Shown in pieces: positions 3,401 through 44,722 of a stretch of DNA of 64,000 bases (the first letter of the stretch is position 1; every line of letters starts with the position of its first letter). The notes beneath the pieces were generated by a model. That model searched no databases. It was not told where the DNA came from and was given only the letters and a program-made list of their open reading frames with translations. Source of the DNA: Phyllobacterium sophorae (lineage in GTDB: Bacteria; Pseudomonadota; Alphaproteobacteria; Rhizobiales; Rhizobiaceae); contig NZ_PGGM01000014.1 of NCBI RefSeq assembly GCF_003010965.1, positions 124,001 through 188,000 of the forward strand, in the 5' to 3' direction. The position numbers and the translations under genes were made by a program.

Positions 3401-4435
3401 TCACAATTTAATGATTTCGCCCGATCGTGCCGCGTGTTTCACTGCCGAAATCACCCTGAGCGTGTTCAATCCCTCCCTGCCACTCACCAACGGCGGTTCT
3501 TCGCCCCGAATGACTTTGCAGAACTGCTGGATTTGCAGAGCAAGGGGATCGGCTTCATCGAATACGATACGGCTTTTATCCAATGGTACCCACCAGCTGC
3601 GCTTGCCCGCATTTTTCCAGAGGTCCAACGTAGGGATTGTGATCGATCCGTGGGTGCCACCGATAGCGTAGCAAGCTTCATCGACTTTTGGATATACGGG
3701 ATTTTCTCCTGTCGTCATCTCCCAGCTCCAGGGCGCGACAACTGAATCCGAGACGGAGAGTGTCGCCAGCAAGCCGCTTTCGAACTCGAGCAGAATGACG
3801 GACGTCTCCTCGACAGCATTGCCACGCACGGCATTCGACTCGCGTGCCTGCACCGAAACAACCTCACCGAACAGGTACCGGAGATTGTCGACGTCGTGGA
3901 TAAGGTTGAGAAATACTGGACCTGCGCCTTTCTGCCGCCGCCATCCAATGTCGAAGTAATCATCGGGCTTGAACAGCCAGAACATGGCGTTGACCACAAG
4001 GACGCGCCCGAGTTGTCCCGATTCGATGATTTCCTTGGCCTTTTTCATCAAGGGATTGTGCCGCCGATGGTGACCTACCAGAAGCGGCACATTGGCGGCT
4101 TCCGCGGCCTCAACCAGCCGTTCAGCGGACGCGAGATCATCGGCGATCGGTTTCTCGATCAATGCCGGGACTCCCGCCGCGACGCTTTCCAGGCCATTTT
4201 GAACATGTATCTGGTTCGGCGTCGCCACGATTATTCCGTCTGGGCGATCGACCTTCATGAGCTCGGCAAAGCTCGACACCCACCGGACGCCGTGCTCGGC
4301 GGCCAGCTCCTTGGCAGCCGGCGTGGGATCGACGACGGCAATCAGTTCGGCTTCTGGCTCACGGAACACGTGCCCGATGTGGCGCTTGCCGATTAGTCCG
4401 GCACCAAGTACCGCCAGTTTTACCTTGTTCGCCAT
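3401..4435 (-). CDS. Gfo/Idh/MocA family oxidoreductase
   Basis: This 344-residue protein, starting at MANKVKL, has the N-terminal Rossmann motif LGAGLIGKRH, then VVDPTP, and the EKPIADDL block whose lysine is the usual catalytic or cofactor-contact residue of the family. The C-terminal half is the alpha/beta substrate domain with the DVDNLRYLFGEV and GGTHGSITIP stretches. The family oxidises sugars, inositols and cyclitol-like polyols with NAD(P). It lies 33 bases after aroQ on the same strand, so it probably belongs to the same transcript. A polyol or quinate-like substrate is an inference from its neighbours. An upstream in-frame ATG at 4459 is possible but less likely. Confidence 0.85.
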   Translation of the reverse strand: MANKVKLAVLGAGLIGKRHIGHVFREPEAELIAVVDPTPAAKELAAEHGVRWVSSFAELMKVDRPDGIIVATPNQIHVQNGLESVAAGVPALIEKPIADDLASAERLVEAAEAANVPLLVGHHRRHNPLMKKAKEIIESGQLGRVLVVNAMFWLFKPDDYFDIGWRRQKGAGPVFLNLIHDVDNLRYLFGEVVSVQARESNAVRGNAVEETSVILLEFESGLLATLSVSDSVVAPWSWEMTTGENPVYPKVDEACYAIGGTHGSITIPTLDLWKNAGKRSWWVPLDKSRIVFDEADPLALQIQQFCKVIRGEEPPLVSGREGLNTLRVISAVKHAARSGEIIKL

Positions 4436-4468
4436 CGTGGTTTTCTCTCTTCCGAACACGAAGCCAGC

Positions 4469-4918
4469 TTAGGCTTTTACCTGATTGATCAAATGCGCCA
4501 TTCGCTGGATTGCGAATTGGTAGCCTTGCGTGCCAAAGCCTGCGATCACGCCGGAAGCGACACTCGAGATGTAGGAATGGTGGCGGAACGCTTCCCGCTT
4601 GTGGACATTCGAGATGTGGACTTCGATAATTGGATTGTCGAAGGTGTTCAATGCATCGAGGATCGCAACGGAGGTGTGGGTAAACGCGGCCGGATTGATC
4701 ACGATGCCTGCCGCGTCCTCCCGCGCCTCATGTATCCAATCGATAATCTGGAACTCGGCATTGCTTTGCAGGAACCGAATGGCGAGGCTATGCTCGATCG
4801 CAACGCGGGTGCAATCGCGCTCCACATCTGCCAGTGTTTCATGGCCGTAGATCGCTGGCTGTCTTTTTCCAAGAAGATTGAGGTTGGGGCCGTTAAGCAC
4901 GTAGACGAGTTTGCTCAT
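4469..4918 (-). CDS. aroQ: Type II 3-dehydroquinate dehydratase
   Basis: This 149-residue cytoplasmic enzyme interconverts 3-dehydroquinate and 3-dehydroshikimate by the type II mechanism. Recognisable elements are NGPNLNLLG at residues 9-17, the lid with Tyr24, the NPAAFTHTS block near residue 77 that carries the substrate-binding Asn and the active-site His neighbourhood, and EVHISN near residue 100. Length and order match dodecameric AroQ enzymes. The start at 4918 is preceded by a purine-rich AGGAAACG stretch. Its position beside shikimate dehydrogenase, an uptake system and ring-cleavage genes suggests a catabolic (QutE/AroQ2-like) paralogue rather than the biosynthetic housekeeping copy. 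It is divergent from the CHMI-like gene with a 66-base gap. Confidence 0.93.
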
Positions 4919-4984
4919 GGTCGTTTCCTGTTGTTGAATGGGAATGTGAGGGAAGCCGCGCTTCCAGGAGAAAAGGGAGTGGAG

Positions 4985-5356
4985 ATGCCGCACATCACCA
5001 TCGAATACAGCCAAGGAGCAAAGGCGCGCGTGGATATCAGTCGGCTCGCGCAAGGAGTGCATGTTGCAGCGCGCGCCAGCGGCATTTTTCCGGCGAATGC
5101 CGTCAGGACTTTTGCGCGTGAAGCGACAATATCGTTCGTTGCCGACGAGCACCCCGAGAACGTCTTCGTCCAGATCGTTGCACGGGTCGCGCCCGGTCGG
5201 CCTGCGGACCTTTTGAAGCGAATTGCAGATCTGCTGTTCGCAGCCGCAGCTGCGGAAGCGGCCGAAGCACTTGAAGCTGGCCGGTTCGCATTGCGTGTGG
5301 ACCTGACGGAGTCGGATCCCGCGCTATCGGCATACCGGAATACGCTGCCCACATAG
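4985..5356 (+). CDS. 5-carboxymethyl-2-hydroxymuconate Delta-isomerase-like tautomerase
   Basis: This 123-residue protein begins MPHITIEYS. In the tautomerase superfamily the proline exposed after Met removal is the catalytic base, and this opening plus the length matches the HpaF/CHMI family, which ketonises hydroxymuconate-type dienols in meta-cleavage pathways. The internal REATISFV region and the C-terminal [11 protein letters not shown] fit the same fold. It lies on the plus strand between aroQ and aroE, which are both on the minus strand, and ends 46 bases from the aroE stop. An AGGGAG ribosome-binding site precedes the ATG. Its partners appear to be the hydratase and aldolase at 12.2-13.8 kb. 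The true substrate is unknown. Confidence 0.78.
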
Positions 5357-5401
5357 TTTCCCTGCAACGGCCGCCGGACGTCGGCTAGGTTGCTTTTCGC
5401 G

Positions 5402-6304
5402 TCAAACATTGTGCTGTCGCGCATCTTCTGATGCGATGATCTCTGCAAAATGCCGCCTCATTCGTTCGGCATCGGGTTCTATCCCTGAAAACAACCTGAG
5501 AGCGCCGATGGCCTGGAAGACCGTCATGCCGCCACCGTCGAGCGTACGGCAGCCGCGTTCGCGGGCCAGTTTCAGAAGTGGGGTGACAAGTGGCATATAG
5601 ACGATGTCGGCCACCCAATGTCTCGCATCCAGGGCGTGCGGTTCAACGGGCAGGCCCGGGTGGCTGCGCATTCCTGTTGGTGTCGCATGGATGAGTCCAT
5701 CGGCATCCTTCATGGCGGATGCGACGTCGGAAATTGCATGTGCCCGCGCAGATCCAAAACGATCATTCAACTGCGCGGCAAGTTCCTCGGCGCGATGCGT
5801 GTCTCGATCGGAAATGGCAAGGCGTTCGATGCCGAGTTTCAACGCCGCGTGGGCAACGGCAACACCTGCGCCGCCCGCACCCAGCAGAACTGCATGGCGC
5901 TTGGCAATATCTGGCAGGCCACGCGTAAAATTCTCATAGAAACCGGACCAGTCAGTGTTGTGACCAAAGCGCTTGCCGTCGCGCAAGACAATGGTGTTGA
6001 CAGCACCGAGAGCGGCCGCATCCTCGGATAGTTCGTGCAGATAAGGGATGACGAGCTGTTTGCAGGGATGGGTGATGTTCACCCCGGCAAAGCTTCGTTG
6101 TTCCACTTCGAGTAATAGGTCTTCCAGGTGGTCGGGCGATACGCCGCGCCGGGTAAGGTCGAACAGTTCGTAGTGGTAATCGAGCCCGTGCAAACCTGCC
6201 TCTCGCTCATGCAGGGCAGGCGATTTGGACATCTGGATATCCGCGCCGATCAGTCCCACCTGAATTTTTGGGCGGGGCATGGGCTTTTCAGAATGGTGAG
6301 ACAT
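5402..6304 (-). CDS. aroE: Shikimate (quinate/shikimate) dehydrogenase
   Basis: This 300-residue NAD(P)-dependent oxidoreductase interconverts shikimate and 3-dehydroshikimate. The substrate domain shows QMSKSPALHE (Ser pair that binds the carboxylate), NITHPCKQ (catalytic Lys) and GHNTDWSGF (catalytic Asp). The cofactor domain has GAGGAG, and DGGGMTVFQA carries the C-terminal Gln. It is longer than E. coli AroE (272). Its neighbours (a GntR regulator, ABC uptake system, TIM-barrel enzyme and aroQ) suggest a catabolic quinate/shikimate dehydrogenase. It is the last gene of the long minus-strand run from 10.3 kb, 80 bases after the ABC ATPase. MPRPKIQ at 6280 is an alternative start. Confidence 0.88.
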   Translation of the reverse strand: MSHHSEKPMPRPKIQVGLIGADIQMSKSPALHEREAGLHGLDYHYELFDLTRRGVSPDHLEDLLLEVEQRSFAGVNITHPCKQLVIPYLHELSEDAAALGAVNTIVLRDGKRFGHNTDWSGFYENFTRGLPDIAKRHAVLLGAGGAGVAVAHAALKLGIERLAISDRDTHRAEELAAQLNDRFGSARAHAISDVASAMKDADGLIHATPTGMRSHPGLPVEPHALDARHWVADIVYMPLVTPLLKLARERGCRTLDGGGMTVFQAIGALRLFSGIEPDAERMRRHFAEIIASEDARQHNV

Positions 6305-6384
6305 CAGATTTCCAATAATTGTCAGACCGGGGCCAACGCCGCAGCGGCTCGAGCATGTTGAATTTTTGCAAAGCCGAACTGGTT

Positions 6385-7146
6385 CTAGTGATGAGCTAGT
6401 ATTTCGCCTAAGAAAGCCCGCGTTCTGGCATGCGCGGGATTGCGGAAGAATACTTCCGGCTCGCCTTCCTCGATGATCTCGCCGGACGCCATGAAGATCA
6501 CGCGATCGGCAACCTGGCGCGCAAAGCCCATTTCGTGGGTGACGCAGATCATCGTCATGCCGTCGCGAGCAAGACCGATCATCGTATCGAGGACCTCCTT
6601 GACCATTTCAGGATCAAGTGCGCTGGTCGGTTCATCGAAGAGCATCGCCTTCGGTTCCATGCAGAGCGCCCGCGCGATGGCGACACGCTGCTGCTGTCCG
6701 CCACTGAGCTGTGCCGGATATTTGTCGGCCTGATCCTGAATTCGGACCCGTTCGAGATATTTTCTGGCGATAGATTCGGCTTCAGCCTTTTTCGTGCCAC
6801 GCACCCGCATGGGTGCAAGGGCGCAATTTTCGAGGACCGTCATGTGCGGAAACAGGTTGAAGCTCTGGAACACCATTCCCACTTCGCGGCGCACGGCGTC
6901 GATTGTCCTGGAGCTATCATCGAGCGCGGTTCCGTCGACAACGATGCGCCCCTCCTCAAAAGGTTCGAGGTGGTTGATACAGCGGATCAGCGTGGATTTT
7001 CCTGATCCGGACGGTCCGCAAAGGACGATTTTCTCGCCTTTGCGGACCATCAGATTGATGGATTTCAATGCGTGGAATGTCCCGTACCATTTTTCGACGC
7101 CTTCCATGGCGATCAATGGTGTATCGATGTTCGGCGTCTGTGGCAC
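6385..7146 (-). CDS. Amino-acid-type ABC transporter ATP-binding protein
   Basis: This 253-residue cytoplasmic ATPase of the polar amino acid (GlnQ/HisP) class has Walker A GPSGSGKS at residues 44-51, a Q-loop in [16 protein letters not shown], signature LSGGQQQR, Walker [14 protein letters not shown] and the switch His in [11 protein letters not shown]. It powers import through the two permeases encoded upstream (8059-9391) with the binding protein at 7169. The gap to the binding-protein gene is 22 bases, consistent with one transcript. In this locus the ligand may not be an amino acid, because the neighbours handle shikimate-type and aromatic compounds. That substrate idea is inference. Confidence 0.93.
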
Positions 7147-7168
7147 GGTTTCAACCTCGTCTAACAGC

Positions 7169-8011
7169 TTACTTCACGGTGAAGGGGATGTTCGGAATGG
7201 ATTCAGGAAATGCGGGCGGCTTCATGCCCATCCACTTTTCATAGACCTTGGCGTGTTCGCCGTCAGACATGATCTTGTCGAGGAACTTGTTGACGGTCTC
7301 GTTCCAGTCCTTTTCGCCCAGCCGCGTTCCGACGCCGTTGAATGTGGTTAGGAAGTCGATCTTACGTTCGTAAGTGTCGGCTTTCGCTTCATCGAGGCGC
7401 TGCATGTAGAACTGGTTGCCGCCGACAGCCTGGACCTGACCGGACAGCATTGCCTGGATTGCAGCAGCATCATCATCAAACCGGCGAACGGTGGCGGTCG
7501 TAGCCACCGCGTCGGTGACTGCCTTGTCTTGCGAACTGGAACGCGGCACGCCGATTTCCAATCCAGCGAGGTCGGCGACGGCAACGATCTTCTTTTCCTT
7601 TGGTCCATAGAGGGAGATGGTGTTGGCGGCATAAGGCTTGCTGTACTGGATCGACTTGGCGCGTTCCTCGGTCATCGCCATCGTCGCGAAGAGTATGTCG
7701 ACCTTACCGCTGACCAGAGCCGGTATCCGATTGGCTACGGCGAGCGGAGCAAATTCGACCTCGACGCCAAGATCCTTGCCAAACAACTTGGCGATGTCGG
7801 CATCATAGCCGTCCTGTACCCCGCTGGAGTTGACGAAGCCCCATGGACGGTTGTCGCCCTGGATGCCGACAACGATCTTGCCGCGCGCCTTGACTTCATC
7901 AACGGTTGCCGCCTGAGCCAGCGTTGCGCCTAGGAAGGACAGCGCGAAAAGTGCCATGGCAGCGGCGAGAACGTTGCGGCGCTTGAACTGCCGTAGTGAT
8001 ATGCTGATCAT
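7169..8011 (-). CDS. ABC transporter substrate-binding protein (SBP family 3)
   Basis: This 280-residue periplasmic protein has a positively charged start, a hydrophobic core [14 protein letters not shown] and a cleavage-like LAQA. It then has the family-3 layout: [38 protein letters not shown] and the hinge around [24 protein letters not shown]. This class feeds polar amino-acid-type ABC importers. A strong AAGGAGG site precedes the ATG at 8011. It sits between the permease and ATPase genes of the same system. Its ligand cannot be read from sequence, and the locus suggests a small hydroxylated acid. Confidence 0.92.
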
Positions 8012-8058
8012 AATGGTTCCTCCTTGGTAATTTTCCCGATTTTATTTTCGTTTGGACG

Positions 8059-8712
8059 CTAACGCGCTGCGGCAGCTGCCAACCGATTTTCCAGCCGTGC
8101 CCCATAGAGCGACAACGGCCAGCAAATGACGAAGTAAACGGCCCCGACGATGCCGAAGACGAGCAGGGGCTTGTAGGTCTGGTTCGAGACGATCTGCCCG
8201 GCGCGGGCAAGTTCGATGAAGCCCACGATGGCGGCAAGAGATGTGCCCTTGATCAGCTGGACAAGAAAGCCGACGGTCGCAGGCAGCGACAGACGCAGGG
8301 CCTGCGGCAGAATGATATCTTTCGTGCGCGAGACATAGTGCAGACCCAGCGCATTGGCGGCTTCGCTTTGACCTTTTGGCACGGCCTGAATGGCACCGCG
8401 CCAGATTTCTCCAAGGTAAGCGCTCGCATGCAGCGTTAAAGCAATCGTCACCGCGACCCAGGCGTCCACTTCCATGCCGATCAGCGTAATCCCGTAATAG
8501 ACGACGAAAAGCTGCATCAGCAGGGGCGTTCCCTGGAATACGGAGATGTATCCAGCGGTAGTGCGCCGGAGTGATTTCCAGTTCGAAGTCCGTGCCAGGG
8601 CGACAAGCAAACCAAAGACACCGCCGCCGACAAAGCCGATCGCAGAGAGCAGGATGGTCCATTTCAGACCCTGGAGCAGGAAGAGGATTTCGTTGGGGCC
8701 GATGATGTTCAT
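8059..8712 (-). CDS. Amino-acid-type ABC transporter permease
   Basis: This 217-residue inner-membrane protein has about five hydrophobic helices and the family-conserved FQGTPLLMQLFVVYYG, then the cytoplasmic EAA-type loop EAANALGLHYVSRTKDIILPQALRLSLPA. It is one of two permease subunits expected to pair with the protein encoded at 8723-9391 and the ATPase at 6385-7146. The 10-base spacing to the neighbouring permease gene indicates one operon. Length is normal for the HisQM/GltJK group. Confidence 0.92.
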   Translation of the reverse strand: MNIIGPNEILFLLQGLKWTILLSAIGFVGGGVFGLLVALARTSNWKSLRRTTAGYISVFQGTPLLMQLFVVYYGITLIGMEVDAWVAVTIALTLHASAYLGEIWRGAIQAVPKGQSEAANALGLHYVSRTKDIILPQALRLSLPATVGFLVQLIKGTSLAAIVGFIELARAGQIVSNQTYKPLLVFGIVGAVYFVICWPLSLYGARLENRLAAAAAR

Positions 8713-8722
8713 GATATTCCCC

Positions 8723-9391
8723 TCAACGAACCGGGTAACTGAAGTAGTGGCGGTTGATCAGGGCAAACATGCTCATCATCATCCACGAGATAATGAGGTA
8801 CATGATGGTAATCGTGAAATAGACCTCGAAGCTGCGGAACGTGTCTGATTCGATGATCTGGGCCACCGACGTCAGCTCATAGGCGGCGATCGAAGTACAC
8901 ACCGAAGACGTCAGGGTCAGCATGATGAACTGGCTGGTGAGCGATGGATAGATCGAGCGCAAGGCGGGCTTCAGCACGATGAGACGGAATACCTGCGCCT
9001 TGTGAAGGCCAAGTGCAAGACCAGCTTCAATCTGGCCTTTTTGAATATTATCGACCCCGCCGCGAATGATCTCGATGGCATAGGCACCGCCGTTAACTGC
9101 AAGCGCAATGATTGCGGTTACCGTTGGATTGAAGCGCAGCCCAAGCATGGGCAAAGCAAAGAAAATAAAGAATATCTGGACGAGGAAAGGTGTGTTGCGG
9201 ACGATTTCGACAAAGCCGATGACCAGACCTCGCAGAACGCAAAAACGCGATTTGCGTGCTGCTACACCCAATATGCCAATGATCAATGCGAGAGTCATGC
9301 CGGCAAGGGCGAGACCTAGCGTCGCCAAAGCCCCGAGCAAAAGATCGGGCATCTCGTCGAAGACGACGCTGAAATCCAGCTTGTAGTCCAT
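8723..9391 (-). CDS. Amino-acid-type ABC transporter permease
   Basis: This 222-residue inner-membrane permease carries EIVRNTPFLVQIFFIFF and the EAA-type loop EAGLALGLHKAQVFRLIVLKPALRSIYPS, the marks of the HisMQ class. I chose MDYKLDF at 9391 because GAGAGGCAACGGGA lies just upstream. A longer version starting at 9415 is possible. It forms a heterodimer with the product of the gene at 8059. It follows the TIM-barrel gene by about 50 bases, so the import system and that enzyme are probably co-expressed. Confidence 0.92.
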   Translation of the reverse strand: MDYKLDFSVVFDEMPDLLLGALATLGLALAGMTLALIIGILGVAARKSRFCVLRGLVIGFVEIVRNTPFLVQIFFIFFALPMLGLRFNPTVTAIIALAVNGGAYAIEIIRGGVDNIQKGQIEAGLALGLHKAQVFRLIVLKPALRSIYPSLTSQFIMLTLTSSVCTSIAAYELTSVAQIIESDTFRSFEVYFTITIMYLIISWMMMSMFALINRHYFSYPVR

Positions 9392-9443
9392 TCCCGTTGC
9401 CTCTCTCCCAAACAATCAATGTGGAATTTGTAGTTCCTGCGTT

Positions 9444-10286
9444 TCAGCGGAACCGCTCGACGTTTCCGGCCAAATCCAGCAAATGCCCGCTCGCAGCAAA
9501 CAGGTGACCAATGTGATCTTGCGGATCGACTGACGGACCGATCGGAACCTCCACCGATATTGCTGCATCTTCCGGAACCGCGCGTAGGATCGCAGTCAGT
9601 GTCAGCACACCTTCGCCAGGTGCAAGCCGTCCTGACCTGGCCTCGGCAATCATTTCTTCGTGTGACTGCGGGGCAGGTTGACCGGCGTCGCAAAGCTGAA
9701 CGCTTCTTATCCTCGACTTGGCCGCGGTACGAAGATCAGACGGCTCTCCTCCATTTCGCGAGAAGTGCAAGGTATCGACCAGTGCGCCGCCGTTCGGCCT
9801 CCCGGCTTGTTCGACAACGGCAAGAGCATCGGAAAAAGTAGCAACCGTTCTCCAGCCCATGTTTTCAAGATCGACACCCATGTCGAATCTGGCCGCGAGA
9901 TCGCAGAGTTCGGCAAAATTGGAGACGAGCCGGGAGCGATCAGGATCATCACCGCAAACGCTGAGGCGTTTGGCTCCAATCGCATTCGCCGCTTCAAGGA
10001 TCGGGGCAATCGAGTCGGGAACAAAATCGGCCGACAGGGTCACGAATTCGATGTCGTAAACCTGCACGCCTTCCCCATTCAAGCGTTGTTGCAGATCGTA
10101 CGACGCTGCGCTTCCGGCAGGGACTTCGTAGAAGGGTGCACCCGGAAAAGCCGGGTAAAGTCTGAGACCGACGGCCAAAAACCCGGCTTTCGCAGCCATT
10201 GGGACGAGTTCCTGCGGCGGTATTTGTATGGCCGAAAAATGGGCCAATCCCAAAGGCCGACATGCGTACGTGGAATTCATTTTCAC
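9444..10286 (-). CDS. Sugar-phosphate isomerase/epimerase-like TIM-barrel protein
   Basis: This 280-residue AP-endonuclease-2-type TIM barrel has LENMGW near residue 155 (the metal-binding Glu), VDTLHFSR near residue 190 (Asp and His ligands) and a late VEVPIG strand with a further Glu. The superfamily includes xylose-isomerase-like epimerases, inosose enzymes and 3-dehydroshikimate dehydratases (QuiC/AsbF type). Beside aroQ, aroE and ring-cleavage genes, a dehydroshikimate dehydratase-like role is attractive but unproven. It is 15 bases downstream of the GntR regulator gene and appears co-transcribed with it and the ABC genes. Confidence 0.75.
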   Translation of the reverse strand: MKMNSTYACRPLGLAHFSAIQIPPQELVPMAAKAGFLAVGLRLYPAFPGAPFYEVPAGSAASYDLQQRLNGEGVQVYDIEFVTLSADFVPDSIAPILEAANAIGAKRLSVCGDDPDRSRLVSNFAELCDLAARFDMGVDLENMGWRTVATFSDALAVVEQAGRPNGGALVDTLHFSRNGGEPSDLRTAAKSRIRSVQLCDAGQPAPQSHEEMIAEARSGRLAPGEGVLTLTAILRAVPEDAAISVEVPIGPSVDPQDHIGHLFAASGHLLDLAGNVERFR

Positions 10287-10301
10287 CTCCGTACCGGCTT
10301 T

Positions 10302-11051
10302 TCAGCCGATGCCCTTTTCGGACAAATGTTTTTGAAGATTGGTCCCTGTACGGTGGATGTGTTCGCGCAGTCGATTGCAGGCGTAGTCCATGTCACGTGC
10401 GATCGCACCTTGCGCTATTTCGCTGTGCTCCGTGTTGACATTGCGATCGCCTGAAGTCGCCCGCAAAAACGTGCGACGATAGCGGTCATTGAGATTCAAG
10501 AGGATGCTGCAGAAGCTCAGGAGCTGTGGTTTGCCGCAACCGGAAATCAGTGTGAGATGAAATTCACGGTGAATATCTTCCCATTGTTGCAGGGTTTCAG
10601 GTCGGGCAGCATCGCGCTCTGTGCGATTGAGGCGATGAAGGATACGCATGACGTTACCTTCCCACTCCACCGTACCGACCGTCATGGCTTCGCGAAGCGC
10701 ATAGGTTTCCATCTCCTCGCGAAGGCTGGTGACTTCTGCCAGATTGGCGAGGGAAAGCGGAGCGACGCGGTAACCGCGATTGTCCTCGAACTCGACCAGA
10801 CCGTCTGAGATTAACCTTGCCAAAGCTTCACGCAAAGGACTGAGACTGACCTGAAAGCGCTTACGTGCATTGTCGAGATTGATTTTGCTGCCGGCCTCCA
10901 ACTGGCCCGAAACGATTGCTTCGCGAAGCCGCGATACGAGCTGGCTTGCGATTGTGTTCTTCCCGTCATCGACGAATGAGTTTCCCCCGTCCGCTTCCCC
11001 GAGGGGAGTTGCCGCACCGGTAAGGTGCGTGTCTGTCCGATCGCTTTGCAA
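10302..11051 (-). CDS. GntR-family (FadR-type) transcriptional regulator
   Basis: This 249-residue regulator has an N-terminal winged helix at about residues 32-100 (LVSRLREAIVSGQLEAGSKI, then VSLSPLREALARLISDGLVE), followed by an all-helical FCD effector domain with the metal-type DIHREFHLTLISGCG and late HSEIAQGAIARD. The start is a TTG at 11051 with GGGAGG upstream. It is divergent from the dioxygenase operon across 258 bases and leads the minus-strand transport/enzyme run. It therefore probably controls both arms in response to a carboxylic-acid pathway intermediate. The role is inferred from family and position. Confidence 0.9.
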   Translation of the reverse strand: MQSDRTDTHLTGAATPLGEADGGNSFVDDGKNTIASQLVSRLREAIVSGQLEAGSKINLDNARKRFQVSLSPLREALARLISDGLVEFEDNRGYRVAPLSLANLAEVTSLREEMETYALREAMTVGTVEWEGNVMRILHRLNRTERDAARPETLQQWEDIHREFHLTLISGCGKPQLLSFCSILLNLNDRYRRTFLRATSGDRNVNTEHSEIAQGAIARDMDYACNRLREHIHRTGTNLQKHLSEKGIG

Positions 11052-11309
11052 TGGGTCCTCCCAAAGACCTGAGCATCTTTCAACTATCGATGATCAATAG
11101 AATAAACGATGATTTGTGTCAACAGTTTTGAGTCTCTTTGTCGGAATTGAATATTGACAAGCAGCGTGAACGACAAAAAACTACGAAAAATAAACATGTT
11201 AGCTCGTTATGGAGGCATCGTTTCATTTGAATAGGTGCTGAATCATCATTAATCGTGTTGACAAATAATCGATAATTTACGACACGTTTAGGAAAGCAGG
11301 GAGGCAAAG
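11052..11309. promoter_or_regulatory. Divergent promoter region of the catabolic locus
   Basis: This 258-base AT-rich spacer lies between the GntR gene and the dioxygenase gene. On the minus strand a TTGACA (complement of 11117-11122) is followed 17 bases later by TATTGA, a plausible sigma70 promoter for the regulator run. On the plus strand TTGACA occurs at 11153 and 11258. ATCGAT-centred AT-rich stretches (near 11088 and 11270) and repeated GTCAAC/TTGACA strings could be GntR operators. The exact operator is not decided by inspection. Confidence 0.5.
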
Positions 11310-12203
11310 ATGGCGATTGAGAGACAGGAAGACGTCACGGATGCTGTGCTGGAGGTCATGCAGCAGACGCGCGATCCGCGGCTTCGGGAGATCATGACGT
11401 CGCTTGTTACCCATGTCCATGCCTTCGTCAGGGAGGTCCGTCTCACCGAACAGGAGTTTCGCGAGACGACGGCGATTTTGAATGAAATTGGAAAGTTGCA
11501 GACCGACAGTCACAACGAGATGGTGCTAATGGCAGGGTCCCTCGGTGTGTCATCATTGGTATGCCTCCTCAACAACGGCGACAGCGGGCAGACCGAGACT
11601 TCACAATCCTTGCTGGGTCCTTTCTGGCGACTGAATTCTCCTCATGTCGACAACGGCGGGACAATCGTTCGCTCCGACACGCCGGGCCTGCCGCTTTTTG
11701 TTCATGCCAGTGTGCAGGACAGGGAAGGGAACCCGATTGCGGGAGCGGAAGTCGATGTCTGGCACGCGTCTCCGGTGGGTCTCTACGAAAACCAGGATCC
11801 TGAACAGGTGGAAATGAATTTGCGTGGCAAGTTCACGACGGATTCCGACGGACGTTTCTGGTTTCGCACTGTCAAGATGGTCGGATATCCCATTCCGACC
11901 GACGGCGTTGTCGGGCGCCTGTTGCAAGCACAAGATCGCCATCCTTACAGACCGGCGCATCTTCACGCCCTCATTTTCAAAGAGGGATTCAAGACGCTGA
12001 TTTCCCAGGTGTTCGATCCTCACGATCCCCATATCGATACGGATGTCCAGTTCGGCGTCACGCGCGCCCTGACAGGAGACTTCGTGCAGCATGACGAGGA
12101 CCATCCGACCGAGGCGGATATCAGCGCCCCCTGGTATAGCCTTGAATACGCGTACGTGATGGAGCCGGGTGAAGCCGTCCTTCCAAAACCCCCAATCAAG
12201 TAA
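11310..12203 (+). CDS. Intradiol ring-cleavage dioxygenase (catechol/hydroxyquinol 1,2-dioxygenase type)
   Basis: This 297-residue cytoplasmic non-haem Fe(III) enzyme opens catecholic rings between the hydroxyls. The N-terminal helical dimerisation domain (about residues 1-100) is of the catechol/hydroxyquinol type. The four iron ligands are visible: Tyr159 in GLYENQD, Tyr193 in VGYPIP, and His217 and His219 in RPAHLH, with Arg214 beside them. The ATG follows GGGAGG. It heads a plus-strand operon with hydratase, aldolase and solute-binding genes, which is unusual because intradiol enzymes normally feed the beta-ketoadipate route. Hydroxyquinol, pyrogallol-like or substituted catechol substrates are all possible. 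Confidence 0.9.
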   Translation: MAIERQEDVTDAVLEVMQQTRDPRLREIMTSLVTHVHAFVREVRLTEQEFRETTAILNEIGKLQTDSHNEMVLMAGSLGVSSLVCLLNNGDSGQTETSQSLLGPFWRLNSPHVDNGGTIVRSDTPGLPLFVHASVQDREGNPIAGAEVDVWHASPVGLYENQDPEQVEMNLRGKFTTDSDGRFWFRTVKMVGYPIPTDGVVGRLLQAQDRHPYRPAHLHALIFKEGFKTLISQVFDPHDPHIDTDVQFGVTRALTGDFVQHDEDHPTEADISAPWYSLEYAYVMEPGEAVLPKPPIK

Positions 12204-12239
12204 ATCTGCGGCGTTCGTTCGTGCCGAGTGGAGGAAAAC

Positions 12240-13022
12240 ATGCTGACTGATGAAGAGCGCCAGCGCGCCGCCAACGACCTTATGCGTGCCGAACAGGAGC
12301 GCAAGCCAATCCCGCAATTGAGCCGGACATTTCCGAATATTGAGATCGAGGATGCCTATCGGATTCAGGATCTATGGGCCGAGAAGCGTATCGCCAAGGG
12401 TGCCCGCGTTGTCGGTCACAAGATTGGCTTGACGTCACGGGCGATGCAGTTGGCTTCAAAAATGACCGAGCCGGACTATGGCCGCATTCTCGATGACGCG
12501 CTGTACAATGATGGAGCTCAGATCGACGCTAATTCCTTCCTCAAGCCGCGACTTGAGGTCGAACTGGCCTTCATCATGGGCGAGGACCTCGAGGGGCCGG
12601 GAACGCGGATTTATGACGTGATGCGTGCCACCGAATTTGTCGTTCCGGCCCTCGAAATCATCGATTACCGGACGGACGTTCCGCGCGCCATAACGGATAC
12701 AATTGCCGACAATGCGGCCTTTGGCGCTATCGTGGTTGGCGGACGGACGATCCGGCCGATGGATGTCGACGTGCGCTGGATCGGTGCCACGCTGTCGAAG
12801 AACGGGACGATTGAGGAGTCGGGTGTCTCCGCTGCAATCATGGGCCATCCGGCCGCCGGAATCGCGTGGCTGGTCAACAAGCTTCACCGCGTCGGTGCCA
12901 AACTTCAAAAGGGACAGATTGTCCTCGGCGGCTCTTTTACACGTCCGGTAGACATCGCAGCAGGTGATGTCATTCATGCAGATTACGGTTCCCTTGGCGC
13001 AATCGGCGTCTCGTTCAAATAG
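12240..13022 (+). CDS. 2-oxo-hept-4-ene-1,7-dioate hydratase-like (HpaH/MhpD family)
   Basis: This 260-residue enzyme of the fumarylacetoacetase-like hydratase/decarboxylase family is very close in layout to E. coli HpaH: IEDAYRIQDLW, GHKIGLTSRAMQ, EPDYGRILDD, the metal-binding PRLEVELAF and QIVLGGSFTRPV near the end. HpaH hydrates a 2-oxo-alkenedioate in homoprotocatechuate breakdown, and relatives act on 2-hydroxypentadienoate or decarboxylate oxalocrotonate. GGAGG precedes the ATG at 12240. It follows the dioxygenase by 36 bases and precedes the aldolase by 8, so the three are one operon. The family call is firm. The exact substrate is open. Confidence 0.88.
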   Translation: MLTDEERQRAANDLMRAEQERKPIPQLSRTFPNIEIEDAYRIQDLWAEKRIAKGARVVGHKIGLTSRAMQLASKMTEPDYGRILDDALYNDGAQIDANSFLKPRLEVELAFIMGEDLEGPGTRIYDVMRATEFVVPALEIIDYRTDVPRAITDTIADNAAFGAIVVGGRTIRPMDVDVRWIGATLSKNGTIEESGVSAAIMGHPAAGIAWLVNKLHRVGAKLQKGQIVLGGSFTRPVDIAAGDVIHADYGSLGAIGVSFK

Positions 13023-13030
13023 GTGATGCC

Positions 13031-13804
13031 ATGAAACTTCCAGAAAATCGCTTCAAGCGTGCCATTGCCGAACGGCGCCAACAGATTGGATTGTGGTGCA
13101 GTTTGCCGGGGAGCTACATCGCTGAAGCCGTGGCTGCTTCCGGGTTTGACTGGCTGCTTTTCGATACGGAACATTCACCCGGCGATGTTCTGAGCGTACT
13201 GCCGCAGTTGCAGGCGGTTGCGCCCTACGATGTGTCACCGATCATTCGTCCTGCCAGCAATGATACGGTTCTGATCAAGCGCTTTCTCGACATCGGTGCT
13301 CAGACGCTGTTGATTCCTTACGTGCAAAACCGGGAAGAAGCGCAAAGTGCAGTCGCGGCGATGCGCTATCCGCCTGACGGTGTACGCGGCGTGTCAGGTC
13401 TGACGAGGGCAACGCGGTTTGGCCGTGTCGGTGGTTACGCCAAACGTGCCCATGAAGAGCTTTGCCTTCTGGTTCAGGTGGAAACGGGCGAGGCGCTAGA
13501 GTCGTTGGAAAAAATTGCGACAGTCGATGGCGTCGATGGCATCTTTATCGGGCCTGCTGATCTGGCCGCGAGCCTCGGGTTCGCCGGAGAACCGGACCAT
13601 CCAGTGGTGATCTCTGCCGTCGAGGATGCCGTCGAACGCATTGAAAAGGCTGGAAAGCCGTCAGGTATCCTGACGCCCAACATTGCCTTTGCGCATCGAT
13701 GCATTTCGCTTGGTACCACATTTACTGCTGTGGGAATTGATGCCGGAATTCTGGCGCGCGGGACAGAGAGCCTTGCCCGCCAATTCCAGGAGCAGGGTTC
13801 ATGA
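13031..13804 (+). CDS. 4-hydroxy-2-oxo-heptane-1,7-dioate aldolase-like (HpaI/HpcH family)
   Basis: This 257-residue class II pyruvate aldolase is closely similar in order to E. coli HpaI: QIGLWCSLPGSYIAEAV, FDWLLFDTEHSP (catalytic His region), RYPPDGVRGV, LVQVETGEALE (metal Glu) and GIFIGPADLAASLG (metal Asp). HpaI splits 4-hydroxy-2-oxo-heptanedioate to pyruvate and succinic semialdehyde. It is the last catabolic step encoded here and overlaps the following solute-binding gene by four bases (ATGA), a sign of translational coupling. Confidence 0.9.
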   Translation: MKLPENRFKRAIAERRQQIGLWCSLPGSYIAEAVAASGFDWLLFDTEHSPGDVLSVLPQLQAVAPYDVSPIIRPASNDTVLIKRFLDIGAQTLLIPYVQNREEAQSAVAAMRYPPDGVRGVSGLTRATRFGRVGGYAKRAHEELCLLVQVETGEALESLEKIATVDGVDGIFIGPADLAASLGFAGEPDHPVVISAVEDAVERIEKAGKPSGILTPNIAFAHRCISLGTTFTAVGIDAGILARGTESLARQFQEQGS

Positions 13805-14541
13805 TCACGCCAGCGGTCACCGCGGTTATCGGCGATCTTGCTCCAACGGGAACGCTGCGCGCCGCGATCAATCTTGCCAACGCCGCTCTGGTCCAGCGTG
13901 ACCCGGCAACCGGCACGCTGACCGGGGTCAGCGTGCACCTTGCAACTGAGCTTGCAAATCGACTGGGTTGTCAGGTGAGCTTTGTAACTTACACCGCCGC
14001 CGGTCAGGTCTTCGATGCCCTGGATAAGAACGAGTGGGACATTGCCTTCCTGGCAGTAGATCCTCAACGCGCGACAAAACTTACCTTCTCGCCGCCCTAC
14101 GTCATGATTGAGGGCACGTATGTCGTCGTCGCAACCTCTCCTTTCCATACAGTCGAAGATCTCGACAAGGAAGGAAACCGCATCTCGGTGACCGTGAATG
14201 CGGCCTACGATCTGTTTTTGACACGCAATCTCAAACACGCGCAAATTGTCCGCGCAGCAACGCCTGCTGCCGCGCTCGAACAGTTCCTGAATGGTGGCTG
14301 CGAGGCAGCGGCGGGCGTCCGGCAAGTGCTGGAGCGCTCTTCTGGATCGGATCCAGAGCTGCGCATTTTGCCCGACCACTTTACGGTCATCCAGCAGGCC
14401 TTGGCTGTGCGCAGCGAACTGCAAGTGGCGTCTGCCTTTTTGCGGAACTTTATCGAGGAAATGAAGGAGACAGGCTTTGTCCGCGAGGCGCTCGACAGGA
14501 GCGGGCAGACTGAGATTGCGGTTGCGCCAAGAGAACCCTGA
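13801..14541 (+). CDS. Leaderless solute-binding-domain protein (SBP family 3 fold)
   Basis: This 246-residue protein has the family-3 binding fold: LAPTGTLRAAINLANAAL, GVSVHLATELANRLG, DIAFLAVDPQRATKLTFSPPYV and a second lobe with ISVTVNAAYDLFL. It starts directly at the fold with no signal peptide, so it is probably cytoplasmic. Such proteins occur beside catabolic genes in rhizobia and may sense or buffer a small acid rather than deliver it to a transporter. The overlap with the aldolase stop argues that it acts with that operon. Function is unknown beyond the fold. Confidence 0.82.
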   Translation: MITPAVTAVIGDLAPTGTLRAAINLANAALVQRDPATGTLTGVSVHLATELANRLGCQVSFVTYTAAGQVFDALDKNEWDIAFLAVDPQRATKLTFSPPYVMIEGTYVVVATSPFHTVEDLDKEGNRISVTVNAAYDLFLTRNLKHAQIVRAATPAAALEQFLNGGCEAAAGVRQVLERSSGSDPELRILPDHFTVIQQALAVRSELQVASAFLRNFIEEMKETGFVREALDRSGQTEIAVAPREP

Positions 14542-17954: not shown

Positions 17955-19739
17955 TCAGACTGTCAGTCCCGCCTTGCGGAGTCCTTCAACGCGGTGCTCA
18001 AAGTCCACAGGATTCCGGAAGGGAAGGACGCGGCGGCGGCGCTCGATAGAGAAGGTGGGATTCAACTGGAGCGCTTGCTCCCACGCCCGCCGGCTCTCCT
18101 CCGGTCGTCCGAGGTGGCCATAACAGGACGCGAGCAGAGCCTGGGCGGTCTCTGACTGAGGGTTTCGTTCGAGCCGCTGCTCGAGCGCGATCATCGCTTG
18201 CTCATAATCGCCGAGGGAAAAGCGCGCGTCGGCAAGAAATTGGAGCAGGACTTCCGGGTAGTGCGGGTCCAACAGCATCGAAGCATCAAGTGTCTCGAGC
18301 GCACTTGCTGGATCACCCGAGAATATCTGGATATGGGCCATCAACATGAGGAGGTCGATTGAGTTGGGCGAAAGCGCAAGGCCACGTTGCACCTCCGCCC
18401 GCGCGCGGTCCAGGTCCCGGCTCCACATGCAAGCCATGCCCAACGCGAAGTGACCGTCGGGCTGTTCTTCGTCCATCCCTACGGCTTGCTGTGCGAGTTC
18501 CAGCCCCGTCCGTAGTGAGTGCTCAGGATCGGTGCTCCAGGCGTTGATGTAGTCGAGTACATGGGTGAAGGCGATAAGTGCGTGGGCCGCCTCAAATCTT
18601 GGATCGAGGGCGATGGCCGCTCCTGCCAAGTTGCGCGCCGCGATGTTTCCGGTTCGGGTGCAAGTCAAACTCTGTTCCCGACTGCGCAAGAAGAACTCGT
18701 ACGCCTCGACGTTCACCGCGCGCTCACGGGCTAGCTGAGCCTGTTCGCTAACCGTCAGCTTGAGCCTGAGCGCAGCCACGATCTCTTGCGTAATTTCGTC
18801 CTGAACCGCGAAAATATCGGTGAGGTCGCGATCGAATCGGTTAGCCCAGACATGTCCGCCGCTGCTCGAATCGATCAATTGGGCCGTGACTCGCACCCGG
18901 TTGCCAGCCTTGCGCACGCTGCCCTCGAGCACGTAGCGGACGCCAAGCGCCTTGGCCACGTCCGGGACGGAGACTGCTGCCTTCTTGTATACGAAAGACG
19001 AGTTGCGGGCGATCACGTGCAACTCGGACAGCCTCGAGAGGTCCGTAATAATGTCTTCGCTTATGCCGTCGGAGAAATACTCCTGTTCGGCATCGCCGCT
19101 CATGTTGTTGAACGCAAGTACGGCGATGGAGGGATTATCAGGAACGGGCGGCAACGCCGAAGGTCCTGCCGCCGCGCGCGTCTCCGCTGGTGTCGCGGAT
19201 TTCGCCTGAGCGGCGATGCCTACTTGCAGCGAATAAACCCGGACCGGATCAGCGATGTTCTTGAGCTGCACCGCGCCGCGATCATCGATCGCGAGATCGA
19301 GCCTTGCCTTGACCTGCCAGTACGCTTGCTCGGACAGACAGATACAGCCAGGCTCGCAAATGCCTTCGAGGCGCGCGGCGATATTGACGCCGTCTCCCAT
19401 GAGATCCCCATCGCTCTCCTCAACCACATCGCCCAGATGGATGCCGACGCGAAACTCGATCCGGCGATCGGGCGGCAGGCCGGCATTGCGCTCAACCATG
19501 CTGTTCTGCACTTCAATGGCGCAGCGCACGGCATCGACGACGCTGCGGAACTCGATGAGGCTTCCGTCTCCTGTGCGCTTGACTATGCGGCCATTGTGCA
19601 CGGCGATCGTGGGATCGATCAGATCGCTGCGCAGGGCGCGCAGCCGCGCTAGGATGCGATCCTCGTCCGCGCCAGCGAGACGGCTGTAGCCGACCACATC
19701 CGCGACCAGGATCGCCGCGATTTTCCGCATCTCGCTCAT
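17955..19739 (-). CDS. Class III adenylate/guanylate cyclase with TolB-like and TPR regions
   Basis: This 594-residue soluble protein has an N-terminal class III cyclase domain (residues 1-170) with metal-binding Asp14 and Asp58 and the transition-state pair Asn119/Arg123 in GDGVNIAARLE, so it looks catalytically complete. Residues about 200-345 form the TolB-like N-terminal module (SIAVLAFNNMSGDAEQEYFSDGISEDI) common in rhizobial cyclases. The rest is TPR-like repeats (PDGHFALGMACMWSRDLDRAR). It probably makes cAMP in response to protein contacts sensed by the TPR part. It is monocistronic, with neighbours giving no ligand clue. A paralogue lies at 42986-44722. Confidence 0.9.
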   Translation of the reverse strand: MSEMRKIAAILVADVVGYSRLAGADEDRILARLRALRSDLIDPTIAVHNGRIVKRTGDGSLIEFRSVVDAVRCAIEVQNSMVERNAGLPPDRRIEFRVGIHLGDVVEESDGDLMGDGVNIAARLEGICEPGCICLSEQAYWQVKARLDLAIDDRGAVQLKNIADPVRVYSLQVGIAAQAKSATPAETRAAAGPSALPPVPDNPSIAVLAFNNMSGDAEQEYFSDGISEDIITDLSRLSELHVIARNSSFVYKKAAVSVPDVAKALGVRYVLEGSVRKAGNRVRVTAQLIDSSSGGHVWANRFDRDLTDIFAVQDEITQEIVAALRLKLTVSEQAQLARERAVNVEAYEFFLRSREQSLTCTRTGNIAARNLAGAAIALDPRFEAAHALIAFTHVLDYINAWSTDPEHSLRTGLELAQQAVGMDEEQPDGHFALGMACMWSRDLDRARAEVQRGLALSPNSIDLLMLMAHIQIFSGDPASALETLDASMLLDPHYPEVLLQFLADARFSLGDYEQAMIALEQRLERNPQSETAQALLASCYGHLGRPEESRRAWEQALQLNPTFSIERRRRVLPFRNPVDFEHRVEGLRKAGLTV

Positions 19740-42985: not shown

Positions 42986-44722
42986 ATGTCCGAAGAACGG
43001 GCCCAGCGCCGTCTTGCCGCCATATTGGCTGCCGACGTGGTGGGCTACAGTCGCCTTCTGGACCAGGACGAGCAAGGAACATTGGCCGCGTTAAGGGGGC
43101 GGCGAAAGGAGATCCTCGAACCCCTGGTCCGCGACCGCCAAGGCCGTGTCGTAAAAGTGATGGGTGATGGCGTTCTCGTGGAGTTCGGAAGTGCTGTGAA
43201 CGCTGTGTTATGCGCCGTCGAACTCCAGAAGCGGATGGCGGCCGCCAACGAGGGTATGCCTGCCGACCGGCAAATCAACCTTCATATCGGCATTAATCTG
43301 GGCGACGTCGTTGTCGAGGCCGGCGATCTGTTCGGCGATGGCGTCGTTGTCGCCGTGCGACTTCAGGCGATGGCCGGGGCAGGAGATATCTGTGTCTCCG
43401 GCGGCATCTACGACCAGGTCAAGCGGAAGCTTGATTGCGGCTTCGACGAACTCGGTCCGCAATCGATCAAGAACGTCGCCGAACCTGTGTCGGTCTACCG
43501 GATTCGGTTGTCGACCGCATCGGAAGATGGCGTGCCGGCGGACAAAGCGCCGCTGCCGCTCCCCACCAAGCCCTCCATCGCCGTCCTCCCATTTACGAAC
43601 ATGAGCAACGATCCGGAGCAGGAGGCATTTGTCGATGGCCTCACCGAAGACCTGATCACGGATCTGTCGAGAACCAGTGAGTTGTTCGTCATTGCCAGCA
43701 ACTCGGCATTTGCCTACAAGGGCAGGCACATGGATGTGCGTCGCATCGCGCGCGAGCTAGGAGTGCGCCATCTTCTTGAAGGGAGTGCACGGCGGGCAGC
43801 GGGACGGGTGCGTATAAATGCTCAACTGATCGACGCGATCGCGGGTGACCATCTTTGGGCCGAACGATTCGACCGGAGCCTTGAAGATATCTTCGCTGTT
43901 CAGGACGAGGTGACCGGCAAAATTGTCGAAGCTTTGGTGGGCCGCCTGATCGCCGCGCCGGCGCGCAACAGACCAAGCAACCTGGAAGCCTATGACCTCT
44001 GTGTGCGCGCGCGGGCCCTTGGCCTGCAAACGGCGCTCACCGCGAAAGAAGCCATTTTCCTGCTGAACCGGGCAATCGCGCTCGATCCGGAATACGCGGA
44101 GGCGCACCGTTGGCTGGCATTGAACCTCTGGCTGGGCTGGGAGTTCTGGGACGAACCGATGGATCCCAACCGCGCAAAAGCCCTTGCCGAAGCACAGCGC
44201 GCGGTCGAACTCGACCCGAACGATGCAGGGAATCGCTGGGTATTGGGCGTAATATTGGGCCACGAGAGCCGCTGGGCGGATTCGGATGCCGAATTCAACG
44301 CCGCCCACAAGCTGGACCCCAACCACGCCGACGCATGGGCGATGCAGGCTGAACTGACGACGGAAAACGGGCGGCCTGCGGAAGCCATTGAGCAGGTGCG
44401 GAAGGCGCTCCGGCTCAATCCTCACCCGCCCGGTTGGTATTACTGGATGTTGGGCCAGGCTCAATATTCCATCGGCGACTACAAATCATCGGTCCAAACG
44501 CTGCGCAGGCCCGAAACTTATCGCACGACTTCACGACGCCTGCTGGCAGCGAGTCTGGCGCAGCTTGGCCGCTTGGAGGAGGCGCGCTGGGAGGCGAAAA
44601 TGTTCATGATAAGCAACCCGCACTTCACCATCCGGCACTGGTCGGCATCGCAGCCTTTCCCGGCGGAAGACGTGCGCCAGCATATCGTGGCTGGCTATCG
44701 CCTAGCGGGGCTTCCGGAATGA
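42986..44722 (+). CDS. Class III cyclase-like protein with TolB-like and TPR regions; catalytic Asn replaced
   Basis: This 578-residue protein has the same layout as the gene at 17955-19739: cyclase domain (1-175), TolB-like block (SIAVLPFTNMSNDPEQEAF) and TPR repeats. The two metal Asp residues (Asp17, Asp61) are kept and Arg125 is kept. The transition-state Asn, normally in GDGVN, is Val121 (FGDGVVVAVRLQ). Loss of that Asn usually abolishes or strongly lowers cyclase activity, so this may be a degenerate sensor. AATGTGAAATG gives an acceptable start. Confidence 0.88.
   Translation: MSEERAQRRLAAILAADVVGYSRLLDQDEQGTLAALRGRRKEILEPLVRDRQGRVVKVMGDGVLVEFGSAVNAVLCAVELQKRMAAANEGMPADRQINLHIGINLGDVVVEAGDLFGDGVVVAVRLQAMAGAGDICVSGGIYDQVKRKLDCGFDELGPQSIKNVAEPVSVYRIRLSTASEDGVPADKAPLPLPTKPSIAVLPFTNMSNDPEQEAFVDGLTEDLITDLSRTSELFVIASNSAFAYKGRHMDVRRIARELGVRHLLEGSARRAAGRVRINAQLIDAIAGDHLWAERFDRSLEDIFAVQDEVTGKIVEALVGRLIAAPARNRPSNLEAYDLCVRARALGLQTALTAKEAIFLLNRAIALDPEYAEAHRWLALNLWLGWEFWDEPMDPNRAKALAEAQRAVELDPNDAGNRWVLGVILGHESRWADSDAEFNAAHKLDPNHADAWAMQAELTTENGRPAEAIEQVRKALRLNPHPPGWYYWMLGQAQYSIGDYKSSVQTLRRPETYRTTSRRLLAASLAQLGRLEEARWEAKMFMISNPHFTIRHWSASQPFPAEDVRQHIVAGYRLAGLPE

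Follow-up and report, generated by a model that had tools for sequence, protein, structure and literature searches.

Positions 3401–14541 of a 64,000-nucleotide stretch of Phyllobacterium sophorae DNA (hereafter the window) hold two divergent gene runs flanking a GntR/FCD regulator. We propose that this locus is a GntR-controlled regulon that would turn shikimate-type acids into gallate, open gallate with an intradiol dioxygenase (IDO), and degrade the product to pyruvate and oxaloacetate, a reading to which we assign a probability slightly below one half. One half of the locus would import a shikimate- or quinate-type acid and make 3-dehydroshikimate, with AroE acting on shikimate and AroQ on dehydroquinate, as their family-level assignments suggest. 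A dehydrogenase, the Gfo/Idh/MocA protein in the window and a ketosteroid-dehydrogenase-like flavoenzyme in Bradyrhizobium-type loci, would then oxidize 3-dehydroshikimate to gallate. IDO would cleave gallate between two adjacent hydroxyls to give 4-carboxy-2-hydroxymuconate, the enol of 4-oxalomesaconate (OMA), which a CHMI-family protein would tautomerize, HpaH hydrate, and HpaI split into pyruvate and oxaloacetate. CHMI, HpaH, and HpaI would in this way stand in for GalD, GalB, and GalC (LigU, LigJ, and LigK).

The genome that holds the window comprises 6.35 Mb in 49 contigs. Leftward, the locus reads GntR, a TIM barrel, two permeases, a binding protein, an ABC ATPase, AroE, AroQ, and a Gfo/Idh/MocA dehydrogenase; rightward it reads IDO, HpaH, HpaI, and a protein resembling family 3 solute-binding proteins (SBP2). 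Every gene named in an initial annotation of the stretch is present, and the Gfo/Idh dehydrogenase, which that annotation did not list, and the binding-protein-like SBP2 gene are further members. The features are as follows.

3401..4435, minus strand: Gfo/Idh/MocA-family dehydrogenase (Pfam PF01408, PF22725, PF02894)
4469..4918, minus strand: aroQ, type II 3-dehydroquinate dehydratase (NCBIfam NF003806, TIGR01088)
4985..5356, plus strand: CHMI-family tautomerase with Pro at position 2 (PF02962)
5402..6304, minus strand: aroE-type shikimate dehydrogenase (NF009201)
6385..7146, minus strand: ABC importer ATPase, putative polar-amino-acid type (synteny and annotation)
7169..8011, minus strand: ABC importer solute-binding protein (synteny and annotation)
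8059..8712, minus strand: ABC importer permease 1 (synteny and annotation)
8723..9391, minus strand: ABC importer permease 2 (synteny and annotation)
9444..10286, minus strand: xylose-isomerase-like TIM barrel of the QuiC/Lmo2234/IolI group
10302..11051, minus strand: GntR/FCD regulator (PF00392 and PF07729)
11101..11114, no strand: putative operator AATAAACGATGATT, GntR-operon side (palindrome scans)
11264..11277, no strand: putative operator AATAATCGATAATT, dioxygenase-operon side (palindrome scans)
11310..12203, plus strand: IDO, proposed gallate-type ring cleavage (PF00775 and PF04444)
12240..13022, plus strand: HpaH-like hydratase (TIGR02312)
13031..13804, plus strand: HpaI-like pyruvate aldolase (TIGR02311)
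13801..14541, plus strand: SBP2, with no signal peptide evident by eye

IDO has the two domains and the Tyr-Tyr-His-His iron ligands of an intradiol dioxygenase, and the ligands (Y159, Y193, H217, and H219) are kept in all 93 close relatives outside this genome; a PADLOC scan of the dioxygenase gave no match. The case for its ring begins with established chemistry. Intradiol cleavage of catechol, protocatechuate, or hydroxyquinol yields no 2-oxo/2-hydroxy-dienoate, and HpaH and HpaI would therefore be without a substrate on those rings; such a dienoate does arise when the ring cleaved has three adjacent hydroxyls. This chemistry bears out the initial annotation's proposal that intradiol cleavage of a pyrogallol-type ring connects the dioxygenase to CHMI, HpaH, and HpaI, and in our judgment IDO probably cleaves a 1,2,3-trihydroxy ring. 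The pocket has also changed at three positions that we take to line that of hydroxyquinol dioxygenase (1TMX numbering): all 93 of the close relatives outside this genome have Gly in place of Asp83 (G76 of IDO) and Gln in place of Val251, and nearly all have Ala in place of Phe224. The 14 rows of a hydroxyquinol comparison clade all have both Asp83 and Val251, with one gene of this genome accounting for two of the rows. Because 9 of 11 relatives at 58–64% identity retain Asp at position 83, some of them lacking HpaH, we read the Asp83 change as a mark of the closest IDO clade.

Gallate is about twice as likely as pyrogallol to be the IDO ring. It is favored because the gallate route can do without a decarboxylase and two FAH-family probes turned up no HpaG-like gene nearby; these probes, which are not proven to represent HpaG, had no match in the first 24 kb of the window and hit 1 of 38 HpaH-bearing loci, ~6 kb from its dioxygenase. 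A further point in its favor is that protocatechuate and hydroxyquinol have gene sets of their own in this genome, which has no dioxygenase of the LigB family. A pcaH gene scores above its cut-off at C5, where by eye the neighbors resemble pobA and other pca genes; a hydroxyquinol-type dioxygenase lies with a maleylacetate reductase (MAR) homolog at C1; and the LigB family (PF02900, class III extradiol) has no match in the genome, type I extradiol enzymes having been outside the search. Action of IDO on another ring, whether hydroxyquinol, a catechol, 3-O-methylgallate, or a trihydroxyphenylacetate, seems distinctly improbable. The closest solved relatives of IDO are PnpC and hydroxyquinol 1,2-dioxygenase, with which it shares its domain architecture and all four iron ligands, and the true CHMI substrate would be the product if 2,3,4-trihydroxyphenylacetate were opened by an intradiol enzyme; that no HpaG-like gene was found near IDO speaks against such a ring. 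As for hydroxyquinol itself, we reject it as unlikely on the grounds of the chemistry, its product maleylacetate not being an expected substrate of HpaH or HpaI, of the Asp83-to-Gly change, and of the separate hydroxyquinol-type dioxygenase with MAR found both in this genome and on a Bosea plasmid (L119). No MAR was recognized among the families found in 3401–14541.

Gene neighborhoods in relatives sharpen the choice of ring. On Agrobacterium tumefaciens pAt (L115), IDO-HpaH-HpaI-SBP2 is followed by LigM (854 bits against a cut-off of 580), MetF, and PurU, and on A. fabrum pAt2 (L120) the same four genes are followed by LigM (822 against 580) and MetF and, across a transporter, by a DesA-like gene (548, under its cut-off of 800), FolD, and PurU; L117 and L118, which complete the set of four Agrobacterium loci viewed, show no LigM. 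DesA and LigM are reported to convert syringate to gallate in Sphingobium SYK-6 (PMC6888825). On its own, LigM would be compatible with vanillate too. In four Bradyrhizobium-type loci (L052, L053, L054, and L061), genes for a flavoprotein dehydrogenase, AroQ, and a protein termed c110 lead co-directionally into IDO, the last gene of the run; only L052 and L053 have a TIM barrel between c110 and IDO. Downstream in L052 and L061 lie genes for OMA tautomerase, LigK, LigA, and LigB (in L052, 532 against 440, 412 against 304.5, 218 against 108.6, and 585 against 317 bits, respectively), together with putative LigJ-, LigI-, and LigC-like genes, which in L052 have no NCBIfam match above cut-off; L053 and L054 end before this region. 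HpaH and HpaI are absent from these loci, and one further locus (L047) holds both sets. IDO therefore stands beside either of two different tautomerase-hydratase-aldolase sets. The initial annotation had left its trihydroxy aromatic unspecified; the three adjacent hydroxyls stand, and the LigM, DesA-like, and OMA genes make gallate the likelier ring. The flavoprotein homologs, in L056 and in a C1 cluster of this genome, fall near ketosteroid delta-1-dehydrogenases and 4-oxocyclohex-2-ene-1-carboxylate 5-dehydrogenase in NCBIfam, below the cut-offs, and such a flavoenzyme acting on 3-dehydroshikimate would give gallate.

A palindrome, AATAATCGATTATT, precedes IDO, and a variant precedes GntR. 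We compared 29 intergenic regions, one from the window and 28 from relatives whose divergent GntR gene is at most 600 bases away. In all 29, the best site agrees with the palindrome at 11 or more of its 14 bases, as against 0.33 per set of shuffled regions, a control that is partly circular since the consensus was derived from the same 29 regions. The 12-base core occurs four times in the window where 1.03 matches are expected, a number reached in none of 100 shuffles, and these four include both intergenic sites. Across the genome the two intergenic sites form the sole close pair, accompanied by five single sites elsewhere; a reversed control pattern gave one. With the palindrome in the divergent region of all 29 loci, the two halves look like one GntR regulon with a common operator, which supports the earlier view of a single GntR-centered locus. 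The window scan found no operator for the CHMI gene. Elsewhere in this genome (L169; C10:46000-60000), one of these five single sites, with one mismatch, lies at ~1730–1743, ~0.4 kb before a TRAP-AroE-QuiC-like gene run; it sits inside a neighboring regulator-like frame and may be chance.

The gene grouping recurs. The genome collection gave 214 IDO relatives, of which we kept the best 80, adding 13 plasmid loci; IDO is present at ≥55% identity in 91 of these 93 loci, and HpaH in 38 of the 91. Among the 38 we counted GntR in 34, the TIM barrel in 30, HpaI in 29, AroQ in 20, SBP2 in 17, an ABC permease in 15, Gfo/Idh (≥55%) in 10, AroE (≥38%) in 8, and CHMI in 4. These counts are lower bounds, limited by contig ends and identity thresholds; in a Sagittula locus (L121), for example, HpaI, GntR, and Gfo/Idh fall just below threshold. 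The grouping is not chance. A search for further recurrent genes returned mostly apparent antisense frames, along with AroE, aldehyde dehydrogenase, QuiC-like, FolD, PurU, and transporter genes. Only 1 of 20 genomes of the genus has IDO (E 1e-90), and the locus is therefore accessory.

This distribution also bears on whether the locus combines two pathways under one regulator, with AroE, AroQ, and the TIM barrel, as dehydratase, taking quinate or shikimate to protocatechuate and the pca genes, and IDO-HpaH-HpaI degrading another aromatic of the same plant material, such as galloyl esters or syringate. IDO-HpaH-HpaI does occur without AroQ or the TIM barrel in four loci (L067, L104, L119, and L120), the TIM barrel clusters with QuiC and Lmo2234 by structure, and in 42 of 91 loci a pcaH gene is found at most 3 kb from IDO, though never in a locus with HpaH (11 loci have neither). 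We nevertheless consider such a division improbable: the TIM barrel stays with the dioxygenase operon in six loci that lack AroQ (L044, L045, L081, L084, L117, and L118), Sagittula L121 has TIM-AroQ-Gfo-IDO-HpaH-HpaI-SBP2 as a single co-directional run, and this genome carries, apart from the locus, a QuiC-like gene with AroE.

That gene, at C10, encodes a two-domain protein scoring 703 bits, under the 1200-bit cut-off of the two-domain QuiC model NF042435, a score that none of the full-length two-domain proteins (C10, L034, and L048; 667–727) reaches; the single-domain TIM barrel of the window reaches 28.8. A QuiC-like gene and the TIM barrel occur together in seven HpaH-bearing relatives, two of which were checked by NCBIfam. 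The initial annotation's suggestion that the TIM barrel could be a dehydroshikimate dehydratase is made doubtful by these genes, and a role as the only such dehydratase is weakened. Among the listed papers that name Lmo2234, no title or abstract gave an enzyme function for it. Support for the other part of that suggestion, a feed from the shikimate pathway, is found at family level in AroQ and AroE. AroQ, one of three copies in the genome, scores 228.5 against 171 bits for NF003806 and 194.5 against 169.85 for TIGR01088, with the active-site motifs of a type II enzyme; AroE scores 434.4 against 235 for NF009201 and has the SKS, ITHPCK, and NTD motifs. The Gfo/Idh protein has IolG as its nearest NCBIfam model (140.9 against a cut-off of 355), and we propose that it oxidizes either a cyclitol acid or 3-dehydroshikimate. 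The importer (6385–9391) is named by synteny as a putative polar-amino-acid type; its ATPase is 81–85% identical to those of L034, L035, and L116, the last annotated as an amino acid ABC transporter.

HpaH and HpaI pass their NCBIfam models narrowly (361.1 against 351.5 bits for TIGR02312 and 370.7 against 368.8 for TIGR02311), and the HpaI counterparts in L120 and L121 fall under the cut-off (352.0 and 323.9). The window HpaH is 49–52% identical to four high-scoring HpaH proteins (L145–L148) and 78–86% identical to those of dioxygenase-linked loci. CHMI scores 86.5 against 26.5 bits for PF02962 and, under the NCBIfam HpaF equivalog, 40.9 against 215. It is the sole copy found in the genome, is 52–54% identical to the CHMI of L035, L115, L116, and L126, and has no match in the 19 other genomes of the genus (E 0.001). 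It lies between aroE and aroQ on the plus strand and, because it is co-directional with both in L035, L116, and L126, appears to have been inverted as a single gene in the window. The presence of CHMI was correctly noted in the initial annotation, and only its strand, opposite to that of its neighbors, is corrected. By eye, a ribosome-binding site looks plausible for the gene. On its strand, the closest promoter-like match lies at 4602–4630, ~355 bases upstream and inside aroQ, in a scan that gave fewer matches than its shuffles. No mechanism of inversion was found, the inverted repeats around the gene being short and imperfect. In alignment, SBP2 has Val near the place of the catalytic Glu173 of cyclohexadienyl dehydratase.

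Several points weigh against the gallate reading. HpaI-type aldolases normally release aldehydes, and in Methylobacterium L036 a methylmalonate-semialdehyde dehydrogenase (MMSDH) gene (594 against 448.5 bits) follows HpaI, with related genes in L114 (87% identical, interrupted by a stop) and L046 (92% identical, a fragment at a contig end). The position of this gene after HpaI in all three Methylobacterium loci suggests an aldehyde product and suits pyrogallol, from which IDO would form 2-hydroxymuconate for CHMI to tautomerize, HpaH would give 4-hydroxy-2-oxoadipate without decarboxylation, HpaI would release pyruvate and malonate semialdehyde, and a semialdehyde dehydrogenase would lead to acetyl-CoA. 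This route asks of HpaH and HpaI only a substrate one carbon shorter, and in yeast an intradiol catechol dioxygenase is reported to accept pyrogallol and to be needed for growth on gallate (PMC9204233). We regard it as rather unlikely: the MMSDH-like gene is present in only 3 of the 38 HpaH loci, the downstream genes of L052 and L061 serve 4-oxalomesaconate, a C7 acid, and no gallate decarboxylase was recognized in annotated or scanned loci, none having been searched with a model of its own. Of the pyruvate plus aldehyde envisaged in the initial annotation, pyruvate stands; since the ring is likelier gallate, the second product is likelier oxaloacetate, and the Methylobacterium dehydrogenase gene keeps the aldehyde live. 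The stop-interrupted gene of M. nodulans (L114 14846–16114) is missing from the plasmid gene table, and L118 has a more distant aldehyde dehydrogenase (32%) ~7 kb from IDO.

The remaining points concern the tautomerase, the gallate-forming step, and the ring. CHMI is found in only 4 of the 38 HpaH loci, and it may not be the only tautomerase in the genome because an OMA tautomerase-family gene, the only such match, lies on C3 (515 against 440 bits); no LigJ or LigK homolog was found within 17 kb around it, and the families found in 3401–14541 include no OMA tautomerase, LigJ, or LigK. An OMA-tautomerase homolog (48%) ~9 kb from IDO in L035 cuts both ways, supporting an OMA product and questioning the need for CHMI. 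Conversion of dehydroshikimate to gallate is an unproven proposal. The plant bifunctional dehydroquinate dehydratase/shikimate dehydrogenase (DQD/SDH) enzymes that oxidize 3-dehydroshikimate to gallate are reported to have substitutions at AtDQD/SDH Asn406, Thr407, and Thr422 (PMC7752791). Matched by motif and by eye, the window AroE keeps GAVNT and NTD, that is, the canonical Asn/Thr/Thr. LigM, PobA, and the pcaH gene near IDO in 42 of 91 loci, none of these 42 being an HpaH locus, also point to protocatechuate, and the lig cluster of L052 and L061 also serves protocatechuate 4,5-cleavage. Finally, the wider IDO family does not appear uniform in pathway because a side clade (47–61% identity; L122–L125, L011–L017, and L019–L023) pairs with SDR and BKACE genes rather than HpaH and HpaI. 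Some of its loci also have GST, zinc-ADH, cupin, and gamma-carbonic-anhydrase genes, and the clade probably belongs to another uncharacterized aromatic pathway.

Compared with known systems, the proposed regulon would share 4-oxalomesaconate, pyruvate plus oxaloacetate, and the order of tautomerase, hydratase, and aldolase with the gal/lig gallate pathway (GalA/DesB/LigAB, GalD/LigU, GalB/LigJ, and GalC/LigK), in which DesB is an extradiol enzyme. It would differ in its ring-cleaving enzyme, intradiol (PF00775) where the gal/lig pathway has an extradiol member of the LigB family, and in its downstream enzymes, which come from the CHMI, HpaH, and HpaI families. Those three families are shared with the homoprotocatechuate hpa pathway (HpaD-E-F-G-H-I, CHMI being of the HpaF family), but ring cleavage differs, no HpaD, HpaE, or HpaG was recognized in the locus, and HpaH is distant from high-scoring HpaH proteins. 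From quinate/shikimate catabolism (AroQ/QuiB, AroE/QuiA, and QuiC) it has the dehydroquinate dehydratase, shikimate dehydrogenase, QuiC-group TIM barrel, and importer, here tied to an intradiol dioxygenase and a tautomerase-hydratase-aldolase set, with the two-domain QuiC-like gene elsewhere. In plant DQD/SDH, dehydroquinase and shikimate dehydrogenase activities likewise supply gallate, but there they are biosynthetic and bifunctional, and the window AroE lacks the gallate-forming substitutions.

Other parts of the data deserve mention. A second AroQ-TIM barrel pair with a ketosteroid-dehydrogenase-like flavoprotein lies in this genome (L167; C1:84000-103900) at 8793–12982, with a gene that by eye may encode a binding protein; the layout resembles that of the Bradyrhizobium-type IDO loci, and no IDO was recognized in the stretch. 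The c110 protein (217 residues; L052 8321–8974) has no NCBIfam match, its L056 homolog has no Pfam match, and its gene adjoins AroQ in seven loci (L052, L053, L054, L056, L058, L061, and L079). In the window, 17955–19739 and 42986–44722 encode similar N-termini and by eye resemble adenylate/guanylate-cyclase proteins.

More broadly, and only tentatively, the comparisons suggest that Alphaproteobacteria may have a dioxygenase family dedicated to intradiol cleavage of gallate. It would open gallate to 4-oxalomesaconate and be paired with either CHMI/HpaH/HpaI or LigU/LigJ/LigK; the gallate itself would be formed during catabolism of shikimate-pathway acids, through dehydroquinate dehydratase and a dehydrogenase (Gfo/Idh or a ketosteroid-dehydrogenase-like flavoenzyme). 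Bacterial cleavage of gallate is described as proceeding through GalA, an Fe(II) extradiol enzyme, or DesB (PMC10512348, PMC12314914), and we found neither an intradiol gallate enzyme nor this gene combination described in the open-licence literature, screened mostly at the level of listings. If the proposal is correct, an intradiol gallate enzyme would represent a second way of carrying out a common step in the degradation of tannins and syringyl lignin, and the catabolic step from shikimate to gallate would mirror gallate biosynthesis in plants. The IDO family is common in plant-associated Alphaproteobacteria, with 214 related stretches in the genome collection, and since its members are variously labeled catechol 1,2-dioxygenase, intradiol ring-cleavage dioxygenase, or simply dioxygenase, many of these annotations may mislead.

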